Of a stretch of 64,000 bases of DNA, positions 1,456 to 61,927 are shown piece by piece. Source of the DNA: Sycon ciliatum (Eukaryota > Porifera > Calcarea > Leucosolenida > Sycettidae); contig NC_088649.1 of NCBI RefSeq assembly GCF_964019385.1, forward strand, positions 24,145,795 through 24,209,794. The letters run 5' to 3'. Numbering within the stretch: the first letter of the stretch is position 1; each line of letters starts with the position of its first letter. The notes under the pieces are model-generated. The model had not been told where the DNA came from. It saw nothing but the letters and a program-made list of their open reading frames with translations, and searched no databases. A program made the position numbers and the translations under genes.

Positions 1456-2066
1456 CACCACCAGAGGGATTGACACCTTTCATCGAAGGCATCTGAGAAC
1501 AATGGCTGGCGTTAAGTTCCCGAACACAATTACCAACAAGCATCTGTACGACATCTGCGGCTCAGCACCAATTTCGCTCGAGATTGACCAACGGCGTTGG
1601 GAGTTCCTTGGTCACGTACTGAGAATGCAGAAGAGCTCTCCCCCACAGCGTGTGTTAGAGTTTTCAGCCACTGCGAGCCTGCGCGGTCGACTGGGCCGAC
1701 CCAGGACAACTCTCCTCTCAGCTCTTTCTCAGGACTGCCTAGCCCGACTCGGCATTCGCCTGGGCACGCTTAGAGGCCTTAATCAGCTGCGGCAGTTGGC
1801 AGGGGATAAGTCACGGTGGAATGGCACCCCGCGGCACTCATCTTCCTCTGCCGAGCCGCGTCCTTGACTTATCCCCTGCAGGTTGATAATCGTGCACGAA
1901 CAGTCTACCGTCTTTCTGACATTGCCACTCGAACTTGACAATAGATGCTGCTTTTCGTATGTGCAGTTACATTGAGCCATGGTGTTTTTGTCTTATGTTT
2001 GTGAATCCTTCCCGGAAGCAAATGCTGGTTTTTATGCATTCGTGTAATTACTCAGCGTTATTTGCA
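1456..2066 (+). pseudogene. LINE ORF2 C-terminus and 3' end
   Basis: Plus-strand frame from about 1456 to 1867 has the layout of the far C-terminus of LINE ORF2: FHRRHLRTMAGVKFPNT, then RRWEFLGHVLRM, then RGRLGRPRTTLL. That is the usual 'RW-LGHVLRM ... RGRP' tail downstream of the reverse transcriptase. About 200 bases of 3' untranslated sequence follow and end in a short (TAA)n run at 2067-2082. It lies opposite in orientation to the RT fragment at 141-1029. They could be two parts of one twin-primed insertion or two separate copies; the overlapping region differs in sequence, which favours separate copies. Confidence 0.7.
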
Positions 2067-2082
2067 ATAATAATAATAATAC
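2067..2082. repeat. (TAA)n run, first of three
   Basis: Short AAT/TAA run between the LINE 3' tail on the left and the truncated 5' edge of the next element on the right. It looks like the insertion target of the element at 2083-3906. Confidence 0.8.
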
Positions 2083-3906
2083 ACATCACCACGGAGGGCC
2101 GCCCCTACCTGGGTGCTCCTCTGGGCTCGGAAGCCTTCAAGACAACATTTTGCAATGCTCGAGTGGAGGCTTGGGCATCTGAGATGCGTGAGCTGGCGAA
2201 CGTGGCCGAGGCCGAGCCCCAAGCCGTGTATGCCGCACTGGTCTTTGGGTACCGTCACCGCTGGACATTCCTGATGCGCGTGTCGAGCTGTGCACCAGAC
2301 GTCTTCGAGCCTCTCGAGTCCTCTCTTCGCTCCGTCTTGTTGCCAGCTCTATTGGGTGTGCCAGTCGTCCCTGCCCCTCTACGCAGCCTTCTTGCTCTGC
2401 CTGTGCGTCATGGTGGCCTTGCAGTGCTCAATCCAGTTGAGGCTGCCCCGCAACAGCGGACAGCATCTCTGTCCATCACGAGCAGTCTCCAGCAACTTAT
2501 CGCGGACCAGTCCTCCCTCTACAGCGTGGACCCAGCAGCCATTTGCGCCGCCAAGGCTGCTGCCAAGCAAGCCCAGTCTGTGACAACCAAGACCGTCCTG
2601 CAGACAGCTGGTCCAGAGGCCCTACCACCAATGCTTCTGGAGCACCTCCAGGCCAAGGGAACAGGTGCATGGCTGACCTGTCTTCCTGTTCGCGAGCATG
2701 GATACTCCCTCGACCGGCGGTCCTTCGTTGATGCCCTATGCATTCGGTATGGCCTCACCATCCACGGTTCACCTACCGAGTGTCCATGCGGCCGGCCGTT
2801 CACCATCGACCACGCAATGATCTGCAAGTTGGGCGGCTATCCCATCCACCGGCACAACCATGTCCGCAACTACCTGGGCCAACTTCTTTCTCAAGTGTCT
2901 GAGGATGTGCAGCTGGAGCCACCGCTGCAACCTCTACCGACGGTCCGCACGTTTGACCATGGTCCTGCCCTGCTCACTGCGGACGACGCCAGACCGGACA
3001 TCAAGGCCAGGGGGTTTTGGTCGGTACAGACTGATGCATTTTTTGATGTAAGGGTGTTCTATCCCAACGCACAGTCGTACCGATCTCGCCCGCTGGCTGA
3101 GGTGTTCCAATGGCACGAGCGTCAGAAGCAGTCGGCATACGGTGCCCGGATCCGGGAAGTTGAGCACGCGTCGTTCACCCCGATCGTCCTGTCTTCCGCT
3201 GGTGCCCTGGCGAAGGAGGCCACCCGGTTCCTGAAGCTGCTCGGAACGAAGCTCTCCACCAAGCTCTCGCAGCCTTATCCCCTCGTGATGGGAAAGCTGC
3301 GGACGGACCTGGCTTTCAGCCTTGTCCGCGACTCCGTCCTGATGGTTTGTGGGAGTCGCCGTGCATTCCGTGCACCTGGTCTGGCGGCGGATGTGGATGC
3401 TGTTTCTGTGGAGGCCCGCATTCCCGCCACTACGTGACGCTAAGTCCTCCTGGGGTTTGCCGCTCTCCGGTCCTCTTTCATCCCGTTCTCCCCTCTTTTT
3501 TGGGGATTCTTTGTACTTCGTCTTTCTTGTTTTTCTTGTTCCTTTGTTTTTTGTAGGACAGATTTTTGGTGTACTGATTTCGGTCATTGTTGTGTCTGAC
3601 TCTATTCCCAATATCTAATTCTGTGGTTGGTTTTCCAACTCATTGGGTTTTGTAGTTTCCATCATGAGTTTGATTCCATCGTGAGTTTGATTCCATCGTG
3701 AGTTTTGATTCTATTTGCTATTTTTCGTTCCATTTTTGAGCTCATATTTTATTTTCCTGATTTCTTCTCCAGTGTATGTTGTATTGCATTTTAATACATT
3801 GTGTTAATTTTTTGCCCGTAAAAGAGGCTTGCACTTTTTTTTATTTTTTTTTTATAATAAATAAATGATGGTTATCATGGTTAAAAAAAAAATAATAATA
3901 ATAATA
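2083..3906 (+). mobile_element. 5'-truncated LINE with zinc knuckle and REL-type endonuclease domain
   Basis: About 450 codons of open frame (2084-3437, stop at 3435-3437), then a 3' UTR ending in (TAA)n at 3889-3907. The frame starts after the reverse transcriptase catalytic core (GRPYLGAPLGSEAFK). It continues with the region containing TGAWLTCLP and YSLDRRSFVDALCIRYG, a CCHC knuckle (CPCGRPFTIDHAMIC), and then ARPDIKARGFW followed by FFDVRVF. A CCHC knuckle followed by PD...D is the arrangement of restriction-like endonuclease (REL) LINEs, and the sequence matches a large family of such proteins I recognise from cnidarian and fish genomes. Because this reading frame is embedded in a larger open stretch, an initiator cannot be assigned. 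The 5' half, including the RT active site, is absent, so the copy is dead. (TAA)n on both sides matches the TAA preference known for R4-clade Dong elements, but the clade is not proven. Confidence 0.75.
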
Positions 3907-3907
3907 A
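3889..3907. repeat. A-rich/(TAA)n run, second of three
   Basis: A run of A followed by five to six TAA units. It is both the tail of the element on the left and the left edge of the hammerhead array. Confidence 0.85.
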
Positions 3908-4050
3908 GAAAGGTTTGCTCCCCACACCGGAGCTCGCGCTATTCCGCCGACTTTACTTGACACTTGACTGACTCACGACTGCCATCCAGAGCACACGAGA
4001 AGTCCATCGAACCTTCGACTCGGCAAACCTGCAAGAAAGCACCACTCCCT

Positions 4051-4096
4051 GCTCAATACACAGTGTTTCGGGGAATTCACCCCTCATCAGTTGAGC
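4051..4096 (-). ncRNA. Hammerhead ribozyme, type I (unit 1, minus)
   Basis: Same core as the copy at 4999-5044: stem I GCTCAA/TTGAGC, CTGATGA, stem II GGGG/CCCC, GAA, a 3-bp stem III ACA/TGT, and a GTA cleavage triplet. Predicted cut on the minus strand between 4057 and 4056. Confidence 0.9.
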
Positions 4097-4134
4097 TTGA
4101 GTAGGCTGAGGAAGATTGTGCCTGAAGAGCACCA

Positions 4135-4142
4135 CTTATATA
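4135..4142 (-). promoter_or_regulatory. TATA box of repeat unit 1
   Basis: Reads TATATAAG on the minus strand, inside the GTGCCTG...CAGGCAC inverted repeat and upstream of the hammerhead in that orientation. Confidence 0.65.
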
Positions 4143-4528
4143 GTGCTCTCCAGGCACAAACATCACCAGGGATACAAACTTACAGAGACGCTCCGCTTCC
4201 AGCGCGACAAACACCTCGTGAACACCAGATAGCAGCGTGAGTCAGTGTCGCTCCTGGACGGTGAGACATACGTCGAGGACCCTCGGTCATTCGCAACGCT
4301 GTCACCTCCAAACCAACTAGTCGCCAGCCCGCGCTGGGCACAACAGTACGAAGTAGTGGTTGCGACTTCGGCGATGATTTTGTAAGAAAGGTTTGCTCCC
4401 CACACCGGAGCTCGCGCTATTCCGCCGACTTTACTTGACACTTGACTGACTCACGACTGCCATCCAGAGCACACGAGAAGTCCATCGAACCTTCGACTCG
4501 GCAAACCTGCAAGAAAGCACCACTCCCT

Positions 4529-4574
4529 GCTCAATACACAGTGTTTCGGGGAATTCACCCCTCATCAGTTGAGC
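4529..4574 (-). ncRNA. Hammerhead ribozyme, type I (unit 2, minus)
   Basis: Identical core to the other four copies, 478 bases from the unit 1 copy. Predicted cut between 4535 and 4534 on the minus strand, so a transcript through both would release a 478-nt monomer. Confidence 0.9.
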
Positions 4575-4612
4575 TTGAGTAGGCTGAGGAAGATTGTGCC
4601 TGAAGAGCACCA

Positions 4613-4620
4613 CTTATATA
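4613..4620 (-). promoter_or_regulatory. TATA box of repeat unit 2
   Basis: TATATAAG on the minus strand in the same inverted-repeat setting as in the other units. Confidence 0.65.
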
Positions 4621-4937
4621 GTGCTCTCCAGGCACAAACATCACCAGGGATACAAACTTACAGAGACGCTCCGCTTCCAGCGCGACAAACACCTCGTGAA
4701 CACCAGATAGCAGCGTGAGTCAGTGTCGCTCCTGGACGGTGAGACATACGTCGAGGACCCTCGGTCATTCGCAACGCTGTCACCTCCAAACCAACTAGTC
4801 GCCAGCCCGCGCTGGGCACAACAGTACGTCTCACCGTCCAGGAGCGACACTGACTCACGCTGCTATCTGGTGTTCACGAGGTGTTTGTCGCGCTGGAAGC
4901 GGAGCGTCTCTGTAAGTTTGTATCCCTGGTGATGTTT

Positions 4938-4977
4938 GTGCCTGGAGAGCACTATATAAGTGGTGCTCTTCAGGCAC
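4938..4977 (+). promoter_or_regulatory. TATA box in a 15-bp inverted repeat
   Basis: TATATAAG at 4953-4960 is flanked by GTGCCTGGAGAGCAC (4938-4952) and GTGCTCTTCAGGCAC (4963-4977), complementary at 14 of 15 positions. A start site about 30 bases downstream would fall just before the hammerhead. The same block recurs at 5416-5455 and 5894-5933. This is internal promoter-like structure; initiation is inferred, not shown. Confidence 0.65.
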
Positions 4978-4998
4978 AATCTTCCTCAGCCTACTCAA

Positions 4999-5044
4999 GC
5001 TCAACTGATGAGGGGTGAATTCCCCGAAACACTGTGTATTGAGC
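4999..5044 (+). ncRNA. Hammerhead ribozyme, type I (unit 3, plus)
   Basis: Stem I 3' strand GCTCAA (4999-5004), CTGATGA (5005-5011), stem II GGGG (5012-5015), loop TGAATT, CCCC (5022-5025), GAA (5026-5028), stem III ACA-CTG-TGT (5029-5037), cleavage A5038, stem I 5' strand TTGAGC (5039-5044). Stem I extends past an internal loop (AA/AGG) into CTACTC (4991-4996) paired with GAGTGG (5048-5053, one G-U). All catalytic-core positions are intact (CUGAUGA, GAA, A15.1-U16.1, a GUA triplet). The very short stem III is typical of animal retrozyme and Penelope hammerheads, which are thought to cleave as dimers. Confidence 0.93.
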
Positions 5045-5430
5045 AGGGAGTGGTGCTTTCTTGCAGGTTTGCCGAGTCGAAGGTTCGATGGACTTCTCGT
5101 GTGCTCTGGATGGCAGTCGTGAGTCAGTCAAGTGTCAAGTAAAGTCGGCGGAATAGCGCGAGCTCCGGTGTGGGGAGCAAACCTTTCTTACAAAATCATC
5201 GCCGAAGTCGCAACCACTACTTCGTACTGTTGTGCCCAGCGCGGGCTGGCGACTAGTTGGTTTGGAGGTGACAGCGTTGCGAATGACCGAGGGTCCTCGA
5301 CGTATGTCTCACCGTCCAGGAGCGACACTGACTCACGCTGCTATCTGGTGTTCACGAGGTGTTTGTCGCGCTGGAAGCGGAGCGTCTCTGTAAGTTTGTA
5401 TCCCTGGTGATGTTTGTGCCTGGAGAGCAC

Positions 5431-5438
5431 TATATAAG
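5431..5438 (+). promoter_or_regulatory. TATA box of unit 4
   Basis: TATATAAG in the same inverted-repeat context, 478 bases after the previous one. Confidence 0.65.
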
Positions 5439-5476
5439 TGGTGCTCTTCAGGCACAATCTTCCTCAGCCTACTCAA

Positions 5477-5522
5477 GCTCAACTGATGAGGGGTGAATTC
5501 CCCGAAACACTGTGTATTGAGC
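5477..5522 (+). ncRNA. Hammerhead ribozyme, type I (unit 4, plus)
   Basis: Core identical to 4999-5044. Predicted cut after 5516, exactly 478 nt after the previous cut. Confidence 0.92.
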
Positions 5523-5908
5523 AGGGAGTGGTGCTTTCTTGCAGGTTTGCCGAGTCGAAGGTTCGATGGACTTCTCGTGTGCTCTGGATGGCAGTCGTGA
5601 GTCAGTCAAGTGTCAAGTAAAGTCGGCGGAATAGCGCGAGCTCCGGTGTGGGGAGCAAACCTTTCTTACAAAATCATCGCCGAAGTCGCAACCACTACTT
5701 CGTACTGTTGTGCCCAGCGCGGGCTGGCGACTAGTTGGTTTGGAGGTGACAGCGTTGCGAATGACCGAGGGTCCTCGACGTATGTCTCACCGTCCAGGAG
5801 CGACACTGACTCACGCTGCTATCTGGTGTTCACGAGGTGTTTGTCGCGCTGGAAGCGGAGCGTCTCTGTAAGTTTGTATCCCTGGTGATGTTTGTGCCTG
5901 GAGAGCAC

Positions 5909-5916
5909 TATATAAG
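5909..5916 (+). promoter_or_regulatory. TATA box of unit 5
   Basis: TATATAAG in the same inverted-repeat context as the other units. Confidence 0.65.
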
Positions 5917-5954
5917 TGGTGCTCTTCAGGCACAATCTTCCTCAGCCTACTCAA

Positions 5955-6000
5955 GCTCAACTGATGAGGGGTGAATTCCCCGAAACACTGTGTATTGAGC
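5955..6000 (+). ncRNA. Hammerhead ribozyme, type I (unit 5, plus)
   Basis: Core identical to the other copies; predicted cut after 5994. It lies in the last, 3'-incomplete unit, which stops at 6180 where (TAA)n begins. Confidence 0.92.
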
Positions 6001-6180
6001 AGGGAGTGGTGCTTTCTTGCAGGTTTGCCGAGTCGAAGGTTCGATGGACTTCTCGTGTGCTCTGGATGGCAGTCGTGAGTCAGTCAAGTGTCAAGTAAAG
6101 TCGGCGGAATAGCGCGAGCTCCGGTGTGGGGAGCAAACCTTTCTTACAAAATCATCGCCGAAGTCGCAACCACTACTTCG

Positions 6181-6193
6181 TAATAATAATAAG
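6181..6193. repeat. (TAA)n run, third of three
   Basis: Four TAA units join the right end of the hammerhead array to the 3' end of the minus-strand LINE. They can be read as that LINE's (TTA)n tail. Confidence 0.85.
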
Positions 6194-9100
6194 GTACATT
6201 TTTATTTGAATTCGCAGAACCAAACGGGCGGTGTCGCCCAATTACATGGAAGCGAATGGAAACAGTAAAATATTGTAGGAAATAGCCTAACATGATAGCA
6301 GGGTGTAGTACAAAGCAAAGAACGCTCAGTCAATGAATAACGTTAACGTTAGAATACAACAACGGGGAGGCGGTAAACAGCACATGACTGGTACTGTGCA
6401 AACGTTCAAAGATTCCTGTAGTGTTCAGTAGTGGGTGCTACTGCTAGCAAGACAGAACGGGAGGCAGGCTTGTTTGAACTGGTGGTACTAGGTAATACCA
6501 CGCACGTCGGATGGCAGGGTGTTCCATAAAATGGACCCGCGAGCGGTTGGACGGTCGTGGCCGGCTTTGGAGGCAGATTTGGGCACTCGAAGGCCCAAGC
6601 TGCGTTGTGCGCGCGTTGTTCGAGTACTGGGATGCTCCAGAAGGGCTTGCAGTGCATTGCTTGCCCGACCATTCGAGCAACGCCAGATCATAATAAGGGT
6701 CTTTTGCTTGTGGAGCTCTTCGATGCCATACAGCTGCAGACGAGCAAGCAGAGGTTGGGCGCTTGTGCGAGGTGGCAGGCCGAATACGGCGCGTGCCGCA
6801 CGGTTTTGCTGGACCTGAAGGCGGGACCGCTGGTCTTGTCGAAGGCACCCAGAGAACGCCACGGACCCGTAGAGCAAATCTGGCATCACAACGGATTTCA
6901 CGTACTGCTCTCTGGACTTTCTTGTAAGGCAACGGCGGGCTCTCCAGAGTGCTCCCACCTTCTGCGAGGCCTTCTTCACAACATTGTTAACGTGTTCGTC
7001 AAATCGAACGTGCTCGTCTATCGTGATGCCCAGGTACTTCGCATGGGGAACTGCTGGTAGCGGGTTTCCACGGCATTTGACAGTAATGTCTTGGCCGGAA
7101 ATTCGCAGGACATGGCTTTTGCTAGTGTTCAGGATTAGATTCCGTTCCTGGAGGTGGTAAGCAATCTCGGTTGTAGACGTTGTTAGAACTCGCGATACTT
7201 CCTGGCAATCAGGGTGGCTGAACGTGAGAGCAATATCGTCAGCAAACTGCACTGAGATGGACGGATTGGCAATGGTGGGCACATGCCTGGTGTAGATGTT
7301 GAAAAGCACGGATCCGAGAACGGAACCCTGCGGGACGCCACATGAGCATGTGCCACTGACACCAATGGATCCAGCGATTTGCACTTGTTGGGTGCGTCCT
7401 TCGAGGTACTCTGCAAACCATTGGAGTGCAGTGCCGTGAAGGCCAACTTCGAAAAGATCGCGTACAAGAATGTCATGCTTGACTTTGTCGAAAGCCTTCG
7501 ACATGTCCAGCAAACACACACCACTGGCTAGTCGCGCGTCCTTTGCATGGAGAATGTTCTCCGTCAGGAGTACCAAAGCGTCTTCAGTGCAGTGGTTTGT
7601 GCGGTATGCAAATTGCGTGGTCGGCAGGACGTCGTTTGCCGCGAGGAACCTTGTAAGCTGGCGATGTACTACCTTTTCAAGCAGCTTCGCAACAATTGGT
7701 AATAATGACACAGGTCTGTAGTTAGTGGCGACTGTTGGGTCCCCTGCTTTGTAAAGCGGCTTTACCAGGGCGTGTTTGAACGGCTTCGGTAGGCGACCGG
7801 AATGCAAGGAGGCATTGAAGAGGTCGCATAAGTGCGGGGCAACAATATCACTGCAGGCTCGCAGCAGACGGCCAGGGATCTCGTCACTGCCTGTAGCCTT
7901 GTCAGGATCGATTGTGGCGAGTAATCGCTGTACTGCGGGACAGGTCGTTGGCGTGAGAGCTGATAGTGAGTTGCGGGTGCAGGGACCATGGGGTATCTGT
8001 AGGGTGTCCGGACGACTTGGATCAGTGACAATACTATTGAAGGAGCTGCTCACTGCAGAAACATCGCATACTGGGTCCTGCCTTGCCTTGGAGCGGCCGG
8101 TTACCGCGTTCAAGGTTGACCACATTCTCCTTGGATCATGAGAGTGCTGCTCACATTGTCTGGTGAAAAAAGCGTTTCTTTTCTTGCGGATTGCGTTGGA
8201 TGCCTGAGACCGGGCTGTTTTATACCGGGAGAGTAGGATGTCATTTCCTCTATCTCCTAGCCAGCGCTTGTGTAATCTGTTTTTCTTTTGCGTGAGTTGG
8301 TACGTATCCTTGTCGAGCCAAGGTAATCTCGCAGCAGCTCTCTGGCGTCTTGACGAGAGCATGATGGGTGCATGTATGTCTAGAACTGTTTTGAACCCTT
8401 CATAGAAAGCCGTCCACATGTCGTCAACATCCATGTGGGCGGATGTAGGATTAGCGCTGAGTGCTTCGGCGAGGTCACACCGGAACTGGTCGATATCAAT
8501 GTTGCGTAAGTGGCGACGCTTTTGGCATTGCCTACCTGGACTAGTTGTGGGTATGGCGATATGGAGGTTCGCCATCACCGCGTGGTGGTCGCTAATCGAA
8601 CATTCCATGACAACGCAACTCGAGACAAAGTTATGGTCTGCTAGTACGAGGTCGATTACTGAACCATGATTCCCACTTGGAGTCGGCCGTGTGGGGGACT
8701 TCACCAAATTCGAGATGCCAAACATATTGCTGAGGTCTTGCAGGTGTGTACGATGGTGGCTGTGAGTTGTCATGTTGACGTTGAGATCGCCAATAATGGT
8801 CATGTGTGGCGCTTGCGCTTGGGCCCGCTGCAGTGACTCTTCAAGGTCCTTCCAGTAGTCAATCCCCACGTCTGGAGCTCGGTAGACGCAGGCCACTGCA
8901 TGTTGACCCTGGCCGCCTTTGATCGATATCCAGACAGCTTCTAGGCCGTTCAAAGACAGTTCGGGACAAGGTCGGATTGGCAAAGAAGATTTGTAATATA
9001 TACACGTACCTCCTCCTCGTCTACCCACGCGGTCTGTCCTTGTGAGGTTGTATCCAGGAATGGCTACTTCTCCGTCACCAATAGTGCTGTCTAGCCAGGT

Positions 9101-9400
9101 TTCAGCCAATCCAAAAATATCAAAGTCCTGCACCTGGAGGAGTGCTGTTACTTCATCTACTTTGTAGCGCAAGCTACAGACATTCAAAAAACCTAGCTTA
9201 AGAGTTCGGGTGTCCTGGGTGCTCACCGGAAAAAGGGAAGCGGGAGGCTGCATATCAGCACGAGGCAAAAAGGAATATGTAGAAACAAGCGAGAAAAATG
9301 ACAAGTGCATGCAACTGAGTGCTGTCCGCATGTATTGAGCAGGTCAAGGACCTCATTTGGTTGTACAACTCCCTGATTCTAGCTTCTGCAAGCCACGTGC
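6184..9400 (-). mobile_element. CR1/L2-like LINE, long copy
   Basis: A single uninterrupted ORF2 (9331-6488) is followed by a roughly 300-base 3' UTR ending in (TTA)n on the minus strand. No ORF1 was found upstream of 9331, so the copy is either 5'-truncated or of a type without a separate ORF1. The 5' edge is not defined; 9400 is approximate. Confidence 0.8.
6488..9331 (-). CDS. LINE ORF2: AP endonuclease and reverse transcriptase
   Basis: 947 codons without a stop. The N-terminal third is an AP-type endonuclease (EEP fold): LGFLNVCSLRYK near residue 46, then GLAETWL, GDLNVN and SDHHAVM. The central third is a reverse transcriptase: LVKPLYKAGDP, NYRPVSLLPIVAKLLEK, LLDMSKAFDKVKHD, GVPQGSVLGSVLFNIY and the catalytic QFADDIAL. 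The C-terminus has VKSVVMPDLLYG and ends near SILWNTLPSDVRG, as in CR1/L2/Jockey-group elements. The product would nick target DNA and prime reverse transcription there. All catalytic motifs look intact, so this may be a young copy. The initiator is the first ATG of the frame; the Met about 26 codons further in (ADMQPP) is also possible. Confidence 0.85.
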   Translation of the reverse strand: MRTALSCMHLSFFSLVSTYSFLPRADMQPPASLFPVSTQDTRTLKLGFLNVCSLRYKVDEVTALLQVQDFDIFGLAETWLDSTIGDGEVAIPGYNLTRTDRVGRRGGGTCIYYKSSLPIRPCPELSLNGLEAVWISIKGGQGQHAVACVYRAPDVGIDYWKDLEESLQRAQAQAPHMTIIGDLNVNMTTHSHHRTHLQDLSNMFGISNLVKSPTRPTPSGNHGSVIDLVLADHNFVSSCVVMECSISDHHAVMANLHIAIPTTSPGRQCQKRRHLRNIDIDQFRCDLAEALSANPTSAHMDVDDMWTAFYEGFKTVLDIHAPIMLSSRRQRAAARLPWLDKDTYQLTQKKNRLHKRWLGDRGNDILLSRYKTARSQASNAIRKKRNAFFTRQCEQHSHDPRRMWSTLNAVTGRSKARQDPVCDVSAVSSSFNSIVTDPSRPDTLQIPHGPCTRNSLSALTPTTCPAVQRLLATIDPDKATGSDEIPGRLLRACSDIVAPHLCDLFNASLHSGRLPKPFKHALVKPLYKAGDPTVATNYRPVSLLPIVAKLLEKVVHRQLTRFLAANDVLPTTQFAYRTNHCTEDALVLLTENILHAKDARLASGVCLLDMSKAFDKVKHDILVRDLFEVGLHGTALQWFAEYLEGRTQQVQIAGSIGVSGTCSCGVPQGSVLGSVLFNIYTRHVPTIANPSISVQFADDIALTFSHPDCQEVSRVLTTSTTEIAYHLQERNLILNTSKSHVLRISGQDITVKCRGNPLPAVPHAKYLGITIDEHVRFDEHVNNVVKKASQKVGALWRARRCLTRKSREQYVKSVVMPDLLYGSVAFSGCLRQDQRSRLQVQQNRAARAVFGLPPRTSAQPLLARLQLYGIEELHKQKTLIMIWRCSNGRASNALQALLEHPSTRTTRAQRSLGLRVPKSASKAGHDRPTARGSILWNTLPSDVRGIT

Positions 9401-45360: not shown

Positions 45361-45634
45361 TCAGGTGTTAGGAGCAGTAAGCAGTCTTCTTGTAGTTTTG
45401 AGTGTTCTAGCAGTGATGGCGGTTCAAGACTTGTCCGAAATCTATCGCGATTTGGATAAAGCGGGCAAGACGCGGTATGCCGAGAAGCTGGCGTTTGTCA
45501 GGTGTTAGGAGCAGTAAGCAGTCTTCTTGTAGTTTTGAGTGTTCTAGCAGTGATGGCGGTTCAAGAGTTGTCCGAAATCTATCGCGATTTGGATAGAGCG
45601 GGCAAGACGCGGTATGCCGAGAAGCTGGCGTTCA
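45361..45634 (+). repeat. 137-bp tandem duplication over the YqaJ gene start
   Basis: 45361-45497 is repeated at 45498-45634 with only a few changes. Each copy has an ATG (45416 and 45553). The unit is not a multiple of three, so the first ATG opens a 30-codon frame that stops inside copy 2, an upstream ORF ahead of the real gene. Confidence 0.9.
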
Positions 45635-47310
45635 TCGGCTCGGACCAGGACCCCTACGTGACGAGCAGATCTCTCACGCCTGGTGCCACACCTGATTTCC
45701 CCAGCGTGGAGTATCCTGATTTGTACCACTATCTCGTGAACGCGCCGAGTCCCTGCACGAAAGAGGAGATGAAGGCGTACAAAAGCTTGGAGGGGTACCA
45801 GTTTTTCGTTGCTGGTTGGGTTGGCAATGTCGTCACCTTTCCTGCAACTGCGGATGGCAAGAGAGCATTTGTGATGGCGAAGGTCCGTCACTCCCAGTCC
45901 GTGTCCTCTGCTGAGCTGCAGCCTTGGGTGGCAGCTGACATGGATGGGAGTGTGCTTTGTGCCCACTGTACGTGTATGGCTGGCCTGGGTGAGGCATGCT
46001 CCCACATTGCCGCCTTGCTATTTACTCTGGTGGCCAGGACGGATTTCGTGAAAGAAAATTCCGCCTGCACCTCCACGCAATGTCAGTGGATTGCCCCATC
46101 CCTGCAGCCTGTGCAGTATGCCAGGATATGCGAGATGGATTTCGCCGCGCCGAGCAGCAAGCGCACTAAGCCAGCAGCAGCCAGTGTGGAGGTCACCACA
46201 CAACTGCCGACATACACTGTGCCAACCACCAGTGAAGTCAACGAGTTCTTTTCTGGTCTTGCCTCCACGCAGAGCAAGCCAGGGATACTATCAATTGTTC
46301 CTGGTTTCTGCGAGAGGTATGTCCCAACCCGCCCAGCTGGGTTCCCAGCTTATATCACCGACCTCTATGATGAGGCAATGCTAGACGCATCACTCGATGT
46401 GTTGCTGAACCGGTGTGATGATGTTTTGAAGGGCATGGGAGTGACAGCAGCAGAATCGGCTGCTGTTGAAAAGGCAACCCGCGATCAGAGCAAGAGCAAG
46501 CTGTGGTTCAGGTTCCGCGCAGGGCGTGTGACAGCTTCAAAGTTCCGTGATGCTGCTCACACACCCCCTGCGAACCCATCATCATCTCTAATTCGTGCAA
46601 TTTGCTACCCCGATGCATATCAGTTTTCCTCTGCAGCGACCACTTGGGGTTTGGAGCATGAGCAGACTGCCCGAGACTGCTACGTCAAACTGTTTGAGCC
46701 TAACCACTGCGACTTCAAAGTTACTGATTCAGGATTCGTCATCTCCACCACTCATCCGTATCTCGGTGCCAGTCCTGATGGAAACATCAATTGTACTTGC
46801 TGCGGATATGGCGTCCTTGAGGTGAAATGCCCTTTCAAAGCCGTGAACAAGTCCTTCCATGATCTGGCAAAGGACACCAACTTCTGTTTGAAGGAGGTCG
46901 ATGGAAAATTCCATTTGCGCCTTGGTCACAAGTATGCATACCAAGTGCAAGCACAGATGTTTGTATGCAAGGCAGCATATTCGGATTTTGTGGTGTGGAG
47001 CGTGCGGGAATGTGTAGTCATCCGCGTTCATCCAGATCCAGATTTCCACAAGACAGTCCAAGCCATCACGTCTTTCTACAAGGCTGGCGTGCTGCCAGAG
47101 ATTGTCGGCAAGTATTTTACAAAATCCTTCAAATCTACTGCCGCCAATTCTGATGGAGCTGTATGCACTTGCAACGAGGATAAGGACGGCGACGTGGTGG
47201 AATGCTCACATCCAGACTGCAGAGTTAAGACGTTTCACTTGGTATGTCTTCGCATGAAGCAGAAACCAAAACGCAAGTGGATATGTGCAGCATGCAAGAA
47301 GAAGGAATAA
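45553..47310 (+). CDS. SWIM zinc finger, YqaJ exonuclease and PHD finger protein
   Basis: 585 codons. I start at the ATG at 45553 (MAVQELSEIYRDLDRAG); a frame-consistent ATG at 45502 lies in a stretch that looks like non-coding leader. The N-terminal part has CAHCTCMAGLGEACSHIAA, a SWIM-type CxC...CxH finger. The middle (about residues 310-500) is a YqaJ-type phage recombinase/exonuclease: FRAGRVTASKFRDA, WGLEHEQTARDCY, YLGASPDG and VLEVKCPF, with the D...ExK metal site. The C-terminus is a PHD finger (CTCNEDKDGDVVECSHPDC ... CAACKKK). It is the second protein of ISL2EU-type transposons and may process DNA ends during transposition; that role is inferred. It converges with the transposase gene, 770 bases away. 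Confidence 0.88.
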   Translation: MAVQELSEIYRDLDRAGKTRYAEKLAFIGSDQDPYVTSRSLTPGATPDFPSVEYPDLYHYLVNAPSPCTKEEMKAYKSLEGYQFFVAGWVGNVVTFPATADGKRAFVMAKVRHSQSVSSAELQPWVAADMDGSVLCAHCTCMAGLGEACSHIAALLFTLVARTDFVKENSACTSTQCQWIAPSLQPVQYARICEMDFAAPSSKRTKPAAASVEVTTQLPTYTVPTTSEVNEFFSGLASTQSKPGILSIVPGFCERYVPTRPAGFPAYITDLYDEAMLDASLDVLLNRCDDVLKGMGVTAAESAAVEKATRDQSKSKLWFRFRAGRVTASKFRDAAHTPPANPSSSLIRAICYPDAYQFSSAATTWGLEHEQTARDCYVKLFEPNHCDFKVTDSGFVISTTHPYLGASPDGNINCTCCGYGVLEVKCPFKAVNKSFHDLAKDTNFCLKEVDGKFHLRLGHKYAYQVQAQMFVCKAAYSDFVVWSVRECVVIRVHPDPDFHKTVQAITSFYKAGVLPEIVGKYFTKSFKSTAANSDGAVCTCNEDKDGDVVECSHPDCRVKTFHLVCLRMKQKPKRKWICAACKKKE

Positions 47311-48082: not shown

Positions 48083-49672
48083 CTACTGGAAAGGCACCAC
48101 TGAGTCGCAGCAGTTGCACAGCGCAGAGCACACCAGGACAATCTTGTCGATGGTGCACACTCCTGTTGAGGCATCACTCATCAGCATGTTCACTGGCAGG
48201 GTTGACTGCAGAATAGTGTACTTCTGCCGCAAGTTGCCGATAACACGTTCCACATGGATTCGTAGCCGAGACAGCTTCCTGGCCTTCTCAATGCTGATTC
48301 TCGACAGTTGCTTCTTGCCTCTTGTGAACGGAGGTATGACCAGCTCAGCGCAGTGCAGGCCAACGGCATCACTGACCGTGAATCCCCGGTCTGCCATTAG
48401 CTGATCACCCGGCAATAGCTTGTCCAACAGCCCGCAATGCTCCGTGATGTACTTATCCGATGTCCGGCCACCCCATCCTTTGGAGATGAAGGAAATAGTG
48501 CCTTGCGGGGTGATACCAATAAGAAATTTAACCGTGTTGTGGTGTTTGTAATTAGAGAAGGTTTGAGCCCTGGCCATCAGATCATGTGGCCTTTCGCAAA
48601 ACACTTCAAAACAATCAATAATGCAAATGCACTTCCCAAAATGTCCGCGAAACTCCAATGGCATCGTGCGGTACAGTTCGGAGCGCTCTGGCCAGATGAT
48701 CAACGGCTGCAGCCTGCCATAAAGGACGTGGATCCATTTGTGGAAGTACTTTGAGACGGTAGACTGGCTGATGCCGAAGCGATGTGCTAGATCTTGATCG
48801 TGCAAGTTGAGGCGCAGCTTCATCAGGACAATAATAAACTGCGCAAAGGACGGAAGTGCCGCTCGGTGGTGGTCGGGGATGTCCTTGCCAGCAAATGCGA
48901 ACACTTTCTCCAGCACAGCAAAAGATGGGAGGCCAGTTTCATATCTCACCATGTCATCATTGGACTTGAATCCTGATATGATGGAAGACATTGCCGCCTC
49001 TGATTTTTGATGTTTCACAGTGGCTTCCAGGTGCTGTACTTTGACGGTGAGAGCAGAAATAGCAGATTTCTGTTCCTGCAACTGACCATTCAGCTGGCAT
49101 TTGTCCTCTTCCAGCTGTGCCACTCTCGCCTGAAGCAAGGCTAGATCGTCATTTTCTTGTTCAGCACTATTGTCGACATGGCTGCTGGCTTCAGTGAGCT
49201 CTGGCTGAGCTGGGGACGCTGGCTCAACAGAGTCTGACGAACATGAATCTCTCGGCGCACTCTCCTCTTCGATTTCCTTGTCAGCATTACAGTCACTTTC
49301 TCCAGTCAGCACGGGCTCATGATTGCCATGGCAGGTATCTTCAGGCTGAGCTGTTGGCTTTGAAGCTGCATGCCGTCGACGTCGGGCCTTGTGGCGATCA
49401 AATTTTACGTAAGCTTTCTCACCATTTACTCGACCCTCGTCTGAAAAAACAGACGGGACGAAATCAGGGGATAGTGGATCGTCGCTCTTCTTGAACCTTA
49501 CAAAGTGATCGCAGCACACCCAACTGGAAGCGTTGGGCTGCCAGTTCTTGCGCTTCAGCGCAGCAATCCACTTTGCTCTCCTGAGCTGATTAGTTGGGAA
49601 CTTATAAAAGCTCTTTCCACCGCCTTTCGCGAAACGGTTAGCGCAACCAACTGCACAGCAACTCTTCACCAT
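48083..49672 (-). CDS. THAP-domain DDE transposase (IS4EU/ISL2EU type)
   Basis: 529 codons from the ATG at 49672-49670 ([14 protein letters not shown]), chosen because it begins the THAP finger; the frame is open further upstream without similarity. THAP: CAVGC ... W ... VCCDHF ... DFVPSVF (residues 5-80). Then a polar acidic linker, a coiled coil (about residues 185-235), a helix-turn-helix ([19 protein letters not shown]) and a DDE_Tnp_4-like catalytic domain with [15 protein letters not shown] and [12 protein letters not shown] carrying the presumed D, D and E. It should bind the transposon ends through THAP and catalyse excision and insertion. No stops or frameshifts; the copy may be active. 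Confidence 0.88.
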
Positions 49673-49874
49673 ACTACTACACTCCCTACCCACGTCTCCC
49701 TGACCAACGACAGTGACAGCTACCCAGAACAATTCCAAAGCTCTCCTCCAAACACACTTGCCCACAACTATCAACACGCACTTTCAAAACAAAACACTTC
49801 TTGCCACTCGTCCAGTTTTTCGTAGGTTCGTGACTGGGGTCCACGTGACCCGTGACGTGTATCGAATAAGGTCG

Positions 49875-51770: not shown

Positions 51771-61927
<10,157 letters not shown>

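Follow-up and report, generated by a model that had tools for sequence, protein, structure and literature searches.

A (TAA)n tract in the genome of the calcareous sponge Sycon ciliatum contains an array of units of about 478 bp, each with a candidate hammerhead ribozyme. The locus raises two questions: what kind of element the array represents, and how it was copied into its target. We analysed a stretch of 64 kb containing the array (the window) together with related loci of the same genome. Most probably, the array is one recent insertion of a non-autonomous S. ciliatum retrozyme family, copied by two-ended priming of the type of Penelope-like elements (PLEs) on an RNA circle.

Structure of the array and its unit

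The insertion consists of two inverted arms, 1.93 minus-strand units facing 2.83 plus-strand units. The minus arm (3905..4828) has its 3' end at site A (3905-3909, phase 147-151, phase 0 being the hammerhead cut). The plus arm (4824..6182, 2.84 laps as aligned) has its 3' end at site B (6180-6182, phase 185-187). The arms meet head-to-head in a short overlap at 4824..4828, which contains the only mismatch of the plus arm; from 4828 onwards the latter is exact (2.83 laps). The 478-bp laps have 0 mismatches over 924 bp of the minus arm and 0 over 1355 bp of the plus arm. The insert occupies approximately positions 3909-6180 in the (TAA)n tract and is flanked by identical 13-bp repeats TAATAATAATAAG (3896..3908 and 6181..6193). 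The exact length of the duplication is ambiguous within (TAA)n, and the true insert length is uncertain, as the target itself is repetitive and TAAG and TA may also derive from the unit. No frames of at least 150 aa were observed in the array. A LINE-like frame with RVT_1 and Exo_endo_phos domains lies beside it (6488-9343, minus strand).

The descriptor of type I hammerheads (CTGANGA, stem II of at least 3 bp, GAA, stem III of at least 3 bp with A15.1-U16.1, H17, stem I of at least 4 bp) matches exactly five sites in the window, all of them one identical 46-mer. The chance expectation is 0.01 per window (1 match in total over 100 first-order Markov randomised windows), and all five intact hammerheads of an earlier sequence-only reading were recovered. 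They have a 3-bp stem III and GUA at the cleavage site; stem I is the open helix, unlike in type III. On the plus strand they occupy 4999-5044, 5477-5522 and 5955-6000, with predicted cleavage at 5038/5039, 5516/5517 and 5994/5995; on the minus strand, 4529-4574 and 4051-4096, with predicted cleavage at 4535/4534 and 4057/4056. The same reading had placed the five copies exactly 478 bases apart. This is true of the laps within each arm, whereas there is no single direct array: two minus and three plus copies meet head-to-head, and thus the middle spacing differs from 478.

The covariance-model match expected in that reading was not obtained. Rfam 15 found nothing at the gathering threshold in the whole window, nothing at E<=10 in a 2.4-kb segment, and only three weak snoRNA matches, none of them a hammerhead, in 101 bases. 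At E<=1, L082 and L083, two Penelope-like loci from this genome that contain minimal-hammerhead-like letters, likewise gave no match. This suggests, short of proof, that Rfam is insensitive to such forms. The full descriptor was satisfied at only one, L005, of the 21 pattern-scan loci from viral and prokaryote contigs. Folded by itself, the 46-mer favours another structure over the hammerhead by 0.5 kcal/mol, and in the predicted circle the hammerhead is weak (probability 0.11-0.26 for stem I and 0.02-0.03 for stem III).

The unit is 478 or 477 bp long, with a GC content of 53.8%. Its predicted circle has a minimum free energy of -196.0, compared to -163.1 +/- 6.5 in 200 shuffles. A 44-nt palindrome (4936..4979, plus strand; further plus-strand copies at 5414-5457 and 5892-5935) is predicted to fold into a 20-bp RNA hairpin, including G-U pairs, with pairing probability 0.87-1.0. 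The TATA box noted earlier is indeed present as TATATAA within this palindrome (4953-4959, plus strand, phase 392, 52 nt upstream of the CTGATGA core), and is a putative promoter. Downstream, two neighbouring stem-loops are predicted on the plus strand. Stem-loop A (5169..5192, phases 130-153) has the reverse transcription start of one arm on its 3' side, at approximately 5183-5193. Stem-loop B (5203..5224, phases 164-185) has an AC-rich loop and the start of the other arm at its foot, at approximately 5222-5228; its pairing probability in the full circle is only 0.14-0.22. The plus-strand segment between the two sites (5190..5226) forms a "tail" carried by the B-starting arm, and has a counterpart in PLEs.

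The family in the Sycon ciliatum genome

At least 227 unit matches were found in the 538-Mb genome, a lower bound, as this first-look search scored 40 of 1073 candidates. Together with the tandem 478/477-bp units, the conserved hammerhead, the target duplications and laps with common private variants, they support the retrozyme-like family proposed from the window. The hammerhead letters are intact in 170 of 175 genomic copies found within six edits. The detailed sample comprised 39 loci on many contigs, selected for a near-full-length unit, so that short insertions were missed.

In all 37 two-armed insertions the minus arm lies to the left of the plus arm, and in 33 of them one arm ends near phase 150 (site A) and the other near 186 (site B). 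Both ends are at A or B in 35/37, with one of each in 33/35 (P 1.8e-8 against independent choice, the labels being assigned by hand and the class limits fixed after viewing the data). The exceptions are L056 (B/B, composite), L036 (A/A), and L062 and L074 (one end elsewhere). Single-arm insertions are L063, L071, L073 and L075. Flanking repeats of 11-15 bp, counting letters that the unit could supply, occur at 13 loci whose targets are mostly unique. When such letters are trimmed, the ends at 12 of these 13 loci fall at 144-154 and 183-189, save one end without a clear position.

Joints were measured, and A- and B-arm lengths compared, in 32 of the 37 pairs. The joint is overlapping in 18/32. 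Arms range from 0.1 to approximately 7 laps (6.9 at the C5:27.76-Mb locus, 7.1 in the one-armed L073), with no difference in length between A and B arms (32 of each, p 0.23). Arm starts are scattered and form no significant cluster (83 arms). Candidate arm ends at the hammerhead cut were dropped, since the clearest cases, L052 and L059, were query-edge artefacts and there was no significant start cluster. A diverged copy, L060:1629-1928, was considered as a PLE pseudo-LTR and rejected, as it matches phases 393-184 of the unit at 78%; apart from itself, its matches in the genome were all of 77-87%, many of them at retrozyme loci. It was therefore treated as an old relative.

Template, candidate helper and mechanism

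There are 118 variants private to one insertion, of which 77 are confined to a single monomer. Of the 19 multi-monomer variants at sites covered by both arms, 11, spread over eight insertions, occur in each lap of the two arms, for example 387 A>T in 6/6 and 5/5 laps of L069. The arms of one insertion disagree in 10 of 242 informative comparisons, compared to 23% between arms of different loci. These counts cover 36/37 pairs, L025 being excluded for its 37-nt minus arm; an apparent 153/156 discordance was merged, as it reflected an A-run that can be aligned in more than one way. L079 has two private variants that are present in both plus-arm laps and absent from the minus arm, and thus either the templates of its arms differed or there were later changes. 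A further six multi-lap variants are present in only part of the laps (two in L056, and one each in L065, the C8:28.79-Mb locus, L072 and L076); L056 and L072 contain two haplotypes each. The variants that recur in every lap of the two arms speak for a circular template at the genomic level, without proving it.

One possibility is that the template was an uncut linear multimer, transcribed from an array already in the genome, with two-ended PLE-type priming unchanged. A purified anole PLE used mainly unprocessed RNA in vitro, and its ribozyme mutants were still inserted; thus, in the experiments of PMC11167929, this PLE did not require a circle. Homogeneous source arrays would likewise yield homogeneous laps, and 6 of 83 arm starts fall at phase 418-430, a possible start of a TATA-driven transcript (P 0.026 for that window). 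However, no 10-nt window reaches significance (p 0.78 for the best), so that no defined template end emerges. To produce arms of 6.9 and 7.1 laps, a linear template would need six or more hammerheads left uncut. Finally, the variants that fill both arms would call for uniform sources, whereas the predominance of single-monomer variants indicates that source arrays as a rule are not uniform. We thus consider a linear template unlikely.

A candidate helper is encoded in the same genome by a GIY-YIG element with an 807-codon frame. Its inverted pseudo-LTRs carry TATATAA and a minimal hammerhead-like motif. Pfam finds only the GIY-YIG domain in the protein (24.5 bits, cut-off 22.6), with no reverse transcriptase (RT) domain. 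The RT assignment is based on homologues bearing RVT_1 and on motifs that we take to be those of RTs. Of the 49 pseudo-LTR matches listed, 22 end at site B and 19 at site A, 7 are short pieces and one is the query; the two PLE sites are 37 nt apart, A being the earlier. Among the two-armed PLE loci listed, 7 of 11 have one site per arm and 4 do not have the A and B combination. The retrozyme unit and the PLE share the 9-mer CTACTTCGT at site B and a similar predicted fold of two stem-loops. No significant similarity of the unit to the two PLEs fetched was observed outside this 9-mer. Two 9-mers are shared overall, and thus the match is at chance level if it is not anchored to site B. The expected traces of PLE machinery, two internal starts about 30-40 nt apart and a tail on one inverted end, are both present in the retrozyme. 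The anole PLE also prefers ATT, cuts and extends both strands, and has two adjacent internal start sites, located in an AC-rich stem-loop, according to the biochemical part of PMC11167929.

Alternatively, the enzyme could belong to an AP-endonuclease LINE with an (ATT)n tail, the inversion being due to twin priming. The window array is indeed inserted in (TAA)n beside a LINE-like frame, and (TAA/ATT)3 tracts occur at an edge in 24 of 39 loci. However, the other 15 have no such tract at either edge, and two internal starts with one tail per pair agree with the PLEs of the same genome and with PLE biochemistry, which makes this source very improbable. Still less probable is an origin of the head-to-head form by fold-back self-priming of one cDNA, or from an antisense template, instead of two-strand target priming. 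In rotifers, palindromes at the inverted joints of Penelope elements led to the proposal of such a route (PMC3846280). Here, the paired arm starts are 20-235 nt apart in phase and never mirrored (32 pairs), and on the target side each arm starts at a fixed site of its own. The least probable explanation, close to negligible, is that unequal crossing-over or rolling-circle amplification of DNA, with an inversion, produced a satellite-like array in which the hammerhead is a passenger: it would account for identical tandem units, and newt hammerhead repeats were first reported as satellite DNA (as recounted in PMC7229834), but it conflicts with short arrays dispersed over 39 loci in a constant head-to-head form with two fixed end sites, with flanking repeats in mostly unique DNA, and with 9 hammerhead mismatches where 69 are expected from the mean rate (9 against 13.8, a weaker contrast, for unshared changes).

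The preferred reading, two-ended PLE-type priming on an RNA circle, would proceed as follows. Transcripts of tandem units would be cut by each type I hammerhead into 478-nt monomers, which would then be circularised. A GIY-YIG PLE protein, with that of the element above as a candidate, would bind the two neighbouring stem-loops of the circle. In AT-rich DNA, with (TAA)n/(ATT)n preferred, it would cut the two strands so as to leave 3' overhangs of approximately 11-15 nt, as the duplications suggest. Reverse transcription would begin from each of these 3' ends, at site A (phase about 150) for one strand and at site B (about 186) for the other, each copying 0.1 to about 7 laps of one common circle. 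The resulting cDNAs, which face outwards, would join at their far ends, often via an overlap of a few nucleotides, to give a head-to-head array between target duplications. The sequences themselves show the units, the hammerhead motif, the ends at two sites and their pairing, the shared variants, the duplications and a like anatomy in the Sycon PLEs, whereas cleavage, circularisation, the identity of the helper and a protein dimer are inferred. In its strictest form, one ribozyme-made circle would be the template for both strands, and each of two subunits of the PLE protein would hold one stem-loop, cut one strand and start there. We regard the arguments for this form as evenly balanced. One subunit per stem-loop and per target strand would yield one A arm and one B arm per insertion.

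Thus, we favour a new retrozyme family with an RNA circle as the template of PLE-type reverse transcription, both strands of the target serving as primers. PLEs were previously called a strong candidate for moving animal retrozymes (in the discussion of mobility in PMC7229834). The mobility of animal retrozymes has so far been a matter of conjecture; the Sycon family has a PLE-like signature at most examined loci, and the same genome supplies a candidate helper. The informative features, namely the inverted two-arm form, the pair of fixed priming sites and the connection with PLEs, escaped the sequence-only reading. The tail on one inverted Penelope end may be read as a record of two paired starts, one per target strand. 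If so, two-ended priming on one RNA would explain both the long-known inverted ends and the optional tail of Penelope elements. For reconstitution in the test tube, the system offers a defined RNA of 478 nt, a pair of start sites and an enzyme candidate.

Comparison with known systems

In LINE-1 twin priming, both target strands prime on the RNA and an inversion results. The Sycon arms differ in that they start at fixed internal sites, mostly exceed one lap and overlap in content.

Plant LTR retrozymes, e.g. NbRZ1 (as presented in PMC12029980), are similar in having a promoter whose transcript contains the ribozyme and a hammerhead-made circular RNA, the latter being predicted in Sycon. They differ in having type III hammerheads in LTRs and circles of 600-800 nt, and are probably mobilised by LTR machinery of the Gypsy type (PMC7229834, in its account of plant elements).

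Endonuclease-positive PLEs, as described in PMC3846280 and PMC11167929, share with the Sycon family head-to-head inverted ends, short target duplications and a tail of about 30-40 nt on one of these inverted ends. Also common are the TATA box, palindromes, a type I hammerhead near the 3' signal, two adjacent RT starts and AT-rich targets. The Sycon hammerhead has a 3-bp stem III; the PLE forms are described as minimal in a review (PMC7761336). Unlike PLEs, the Sycon insertions contain many laps of one unit. The unit has no RT or endonuclease ORF, and its total size is about that of one pseudo-LTR. Having no frame of 150 aa or more, the array is not an autonomous PLE.

The closest analogy is with metazoan non-LTR retrozymes, which, as characterised in PMC7229834, have tandem type I hammerhead units, target duplications, a highly self-paired predicted circle, and PLEs in the genome. 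Members of that group are also non-coding, lack LTR, PBS and PPT, and occur as linear and circular transcripts. The Sycon arrays likewise are short tandem repeats, from dimers to multimers, dispersed in the genome, and their target duplications of 11-15 bp (13 loci) agree with the more than 4 bp typical of that group. The earlier remark that known animal retrozymes are mostly shorter is correct: published RNAs are about 170-400 nt and repeats 150-450 bp (ranges given in PMC7229834), and thus the 478/477-nt unit lies just outside, marginally exceeding a descriptive range. The GC content of 53.8% is above the less than 50% stated in the same source for metazoan retrozymes. The Sycon unit has a TATA box in a palindrome, whereas metazoan retrozymes seem to be promoterless according to the review PMC7761336. 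The main text of PMC7229834 does not contain the words "inverted", "head-to-head", "sponge" or "porifera"; in the Sycon family, inverted two-arm insertions are systematic.

The hammerhead repeat and its family in the genome

Judged by its sequence, the 478-bp unit represents a real, young and repeated retrozyme family in a calcareous sponge, Sycon ciliatum. A descriptor search found the five hammerhead sites claimed in the sequence-only reading and no others in the window, all of them one 46-mer; 100 randomised windows yielded one descriptor match in total. The covariance-model check proposed there had a negative outcome, as scans of the window and of shorter stretches with Rfam 15 gave no hammerhead match. 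The units are exactly 478 bp each and identical throughout. However, they do not form one direct array, but two opposed arms, a minus arm of 1.93 laps round the unit (3905-4828, minus strand) and a plus arm of 2.83 laps (4828-6182, plus strand). The arms lie head-to-head within a (TAA)n tract, with TAATAATAATAAG flanking either side. Phases in the unit start with base 5039 as phase 0, just after the cut predicted at 5038/5039.

The (TAA)n target may be the 3' tail, seen from the other strand, of a LINE-like element whose open frame occupies 6488-9343 (minus strand) and contains RVT_1 and an AP-endonuclease-type domain. Other frames in the window are a second LINE-like pair (53084-57490, minus strand), one having RVT_1 with Exo_endo_phos and the one upstream matching eIF3g below the cut-off, a YqaJ/alkaline-exonuclease frame with many animal relatives (45460-47310, plus strand), and, adjoining the latter, a THAP/DDE_Tnp_4 transposase frame (48083-49783, minus strand).

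A search for further units in the assembly (538 Mb, 313 contigs; the window is G000:C8:24145795-24209794) produced at least 227 matches, with the best 40 of 1073 first-look candidates scored. We examined 39 loci, namely the window and 20, 10 and 8 loci from the genome-search matches; they were chosen for near-complete units, and thus short insertions were missed. Units are either 478 or 477 bp long, and several variants are common to multiple copies; the mean mismatch to the unit of the window is 0.8%. Among the 175 hammerhead copies found within six edits, 170 are exact. At the mean rate 69 mismatches would be expected in the hammerhead, where 9 are observed, a contrast weakened by the fact that the excess outside the hammerhead is largely shared subfamily variants; for unshared changes the numbers are 9 observed and 13.8 expected. 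At L060:1629-1928 (minus strand) lies a diverged stretch with a short open frame that is related, with a match of 78%, to the segment of the unit holding the TATA box, hammerhead and tail. The descriptor also matched a contig of a viral collection (L005:2586-2652, minus strand), where Rfam Hammerhead_3 gives a sub-threshold match of 27.5 bits against a gathering threshold of 48.5.

Arms, end sites and templates

The examined loci comprise 37 two-armed insertions in 35 loci, the minus arm always being left of the plus arm, and four one-armed loci (L063, L071, L073, L075). Adjoining insertions (L066, L076) were counted separately, and their variants differ; in L076 an (ATT)n site holds two neighbouring two-armed insertions with different private variants. 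An extra plus fragment lies farther left in L056. The 3' ends of the arms fall at phase about 150 (site A) or about 186 (site B). Both ends are at these sites in 35 of the 37 insertions, and 33 of these 35 combine one A with one B (P = 1.8e-8 against independent choice, with labels assigned by hand and class limits set post hoc). The exceptions are L056 (B/B, two haplotypes), L036 (A/A), and L062 and L074 (one end elsewhere). At 13 loci where most of the target is unique sequence, the flanking repeats measure 11-15 bp, including letters that the unit could supply; after trimming of such letters, the ends are at 144-154 and 183-189 (12 two-armed loci, one end unresolved). A (TAA/ATT)3 tract is present at an edge in 24 of the 39 loci, and at both edges in 19.

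These insertions would result from two-ended, target-primed reverse transcription of the type used by Penelope-like elements (PLEs), copying as a rule one template sequence, and this mode is well supported. Private variants were analysed in 36 of the 37 insertions with arm ends trimmed. There are 118 variants private to one insertion; 77 are confined to one monomer, which later mutation would be expected to produce. Nineteen multi-monomer private variants are at sites that both arms cover. Eleven of them occur throughout, in all laps of the two arms; the eight insertions concerned are L060, one of L066, L069, L070, L047, both of L076, and L078, and in L069 the variant is present in 6/6 and 5/5 laps. 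Six are present in some laps only (L056 twice, L065, the L048/L049 locus, L072, L076). In L079, two private variants (191 and 340) each occur in both plus-arm laps and nowhere in the minus arm. This counts against a single template there; perhaps two templates contributed to one insertion. The arms of an insertion disagree in 10 of 242 informative shared-site comparisons (six from L056 and L072), compared to 23% between loci. The arms of L056 and L072 contain two haplotypes, which could reflect either the nesting of one insertion in another or a change of template.

The template is likely to be a ribozyme-made circle. The 5' starts of 83 arms are scattered round the unit, the largest clusters being not significant, as an endless template would lead one to expect. 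Within an insertion the two starts differ in phase by 20-235 nt and are never mirrored, and in the 32 joints the arms overlap by 1-14 nt in 18 cases, abut in 5 and are separated by a gap in 9. This speaks against fold-back self-priming as the origin of the head-to-head form here, the mechanism that PMC3846280 favours for the Penelope elements of rotifers.

Folded as a circle, the unit has a predicted minimum free energy of -196.0 kcal/mol, compared to -163.1 +/- 6.5 for 200 shuffles. Predicted pairing probabilities are 0.87-1.0 for the TATA palindrome, 0.51-0.87 for stem-loop A and only 0.14-0.22 for stem-loop B. In the hammerhead they are 0.99 for stem II, 0.11-0.26 for stem I and 0.02-0.03 for stem III, and with stems I and III so weak the ribozyme would be largely masked in the circle. 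Masking could protect circles; as regards self-cutting, it is also where this model is weakest.

Penelope-like elements of the same genome

Thirteen GIY-YIG matches in the genome led to L082, a locus with an open frame of 807 codons (1552-3975) in which this domain is the sole Pfam match. We read it as a PLE, given the domain, RVT_1-bearing homologues, the ends of the element and what we take to be reverse transcriptase motifs. By eye, its pseudo-LTRs are inverted, the right copy having TATATAA and CTGATGATGGCAATTTGCCGAAACGTTG, and both edges carry the 11-bp repeat AGTTGTCTTCC. One end is 34 nt longer than the other, and the final letters of the longer end, CTACTTCG(T), match site B of the retrozyme. 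The head-to-head pair L083/L084 has the same two ends.

For a search with the pseudo-LTR and tail, in which the best 40 of 586 candidates were scored, the 49 matches listed are the query itself, 7 short pieces, and two groups with fixed ends, 22 stopping at positions 412-420 of the query (site B) and 19 at 375-388 (site A). Pairing by proximity gave 11 loci with arms in both orientations among the matches listed. Seven combine one B with one A (C1:2.907 Mb, C3:9.626, C13:0.219, C3:46.53, C11:7.643, C5:21.087, C5:10.779), and in one (C12:9.669) the match of the second arm stops elsewhere. The other three are B/B, all on C12 and with a deleted form in common: their second arms (C12:6308762, C12:8747086, C12:9524942) all stop at site B, lack the same internal stretch and may represent a short non-autonomous derivative. 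A twelfth two-armed locus, at C1:19.42 Mb, ends at B in the pseudo-LTR search and at A in other analyses of the locus.

Both RNAs have two predicted neighbouring stem-loops with a start site on the 3' side of each. No significant similarity of the retrozyme unit to the PLE was found apart from CTACTTCGT. The two share two 9-mers overall, and thus the argument for a link depends on one of these being at site B in both elements. The site-B end of a PLE in L086 directly abuts (TTA)n, the kind of target seen in many retrozyme insertions. L085 and L088, which adjoin GIY-YIG matches, contain letters resembling a minimal hammerhead, CTGATGATGG... and CTGATGAAGG..., and this genome may therefore hold several PLE families.

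Comparison with known systems

In the open-access papers searched, Sycon was not found together with a hammerhead ribozyme, and among the titles listed on retrozymes, sponge hammerheads and PLE hammerheads none concerned a sponge retrozyme. According to PMC11167929, the PLE protein of the anole, in purified form, cleaves the two target strands and extends each, with a preference for ATT. It starts at two adjacent sites, mostly in an AC-rich stem-loop, and the interval between them corresponds to the 30-40-nt tail of genomic copies; in that study the two strands did not differ in start site, and ribozyme cutting was dispensable in vitro. In rotifer Penelope, the tail is optional and on one inverted end, and among inverted forms the head-to-head one is the most frequent (PMC3846280). 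Animal retrozymes are described in PMC7229834 as GC-poor RNAs of 170-400 nt, with PLEs named as a strong candidate for their mobilisation. By motif, arrangement and duplications, the Sycon unit would belong to the metazoan retrozymes, from which it departs marginally in size and GC content. The proposal of a distinct 478-nt family with its own TATA box holds for the size, the box standing only as a possible promoter; compared to the described animal retrozymes, the Sycon unit is larger and more GC-rich.
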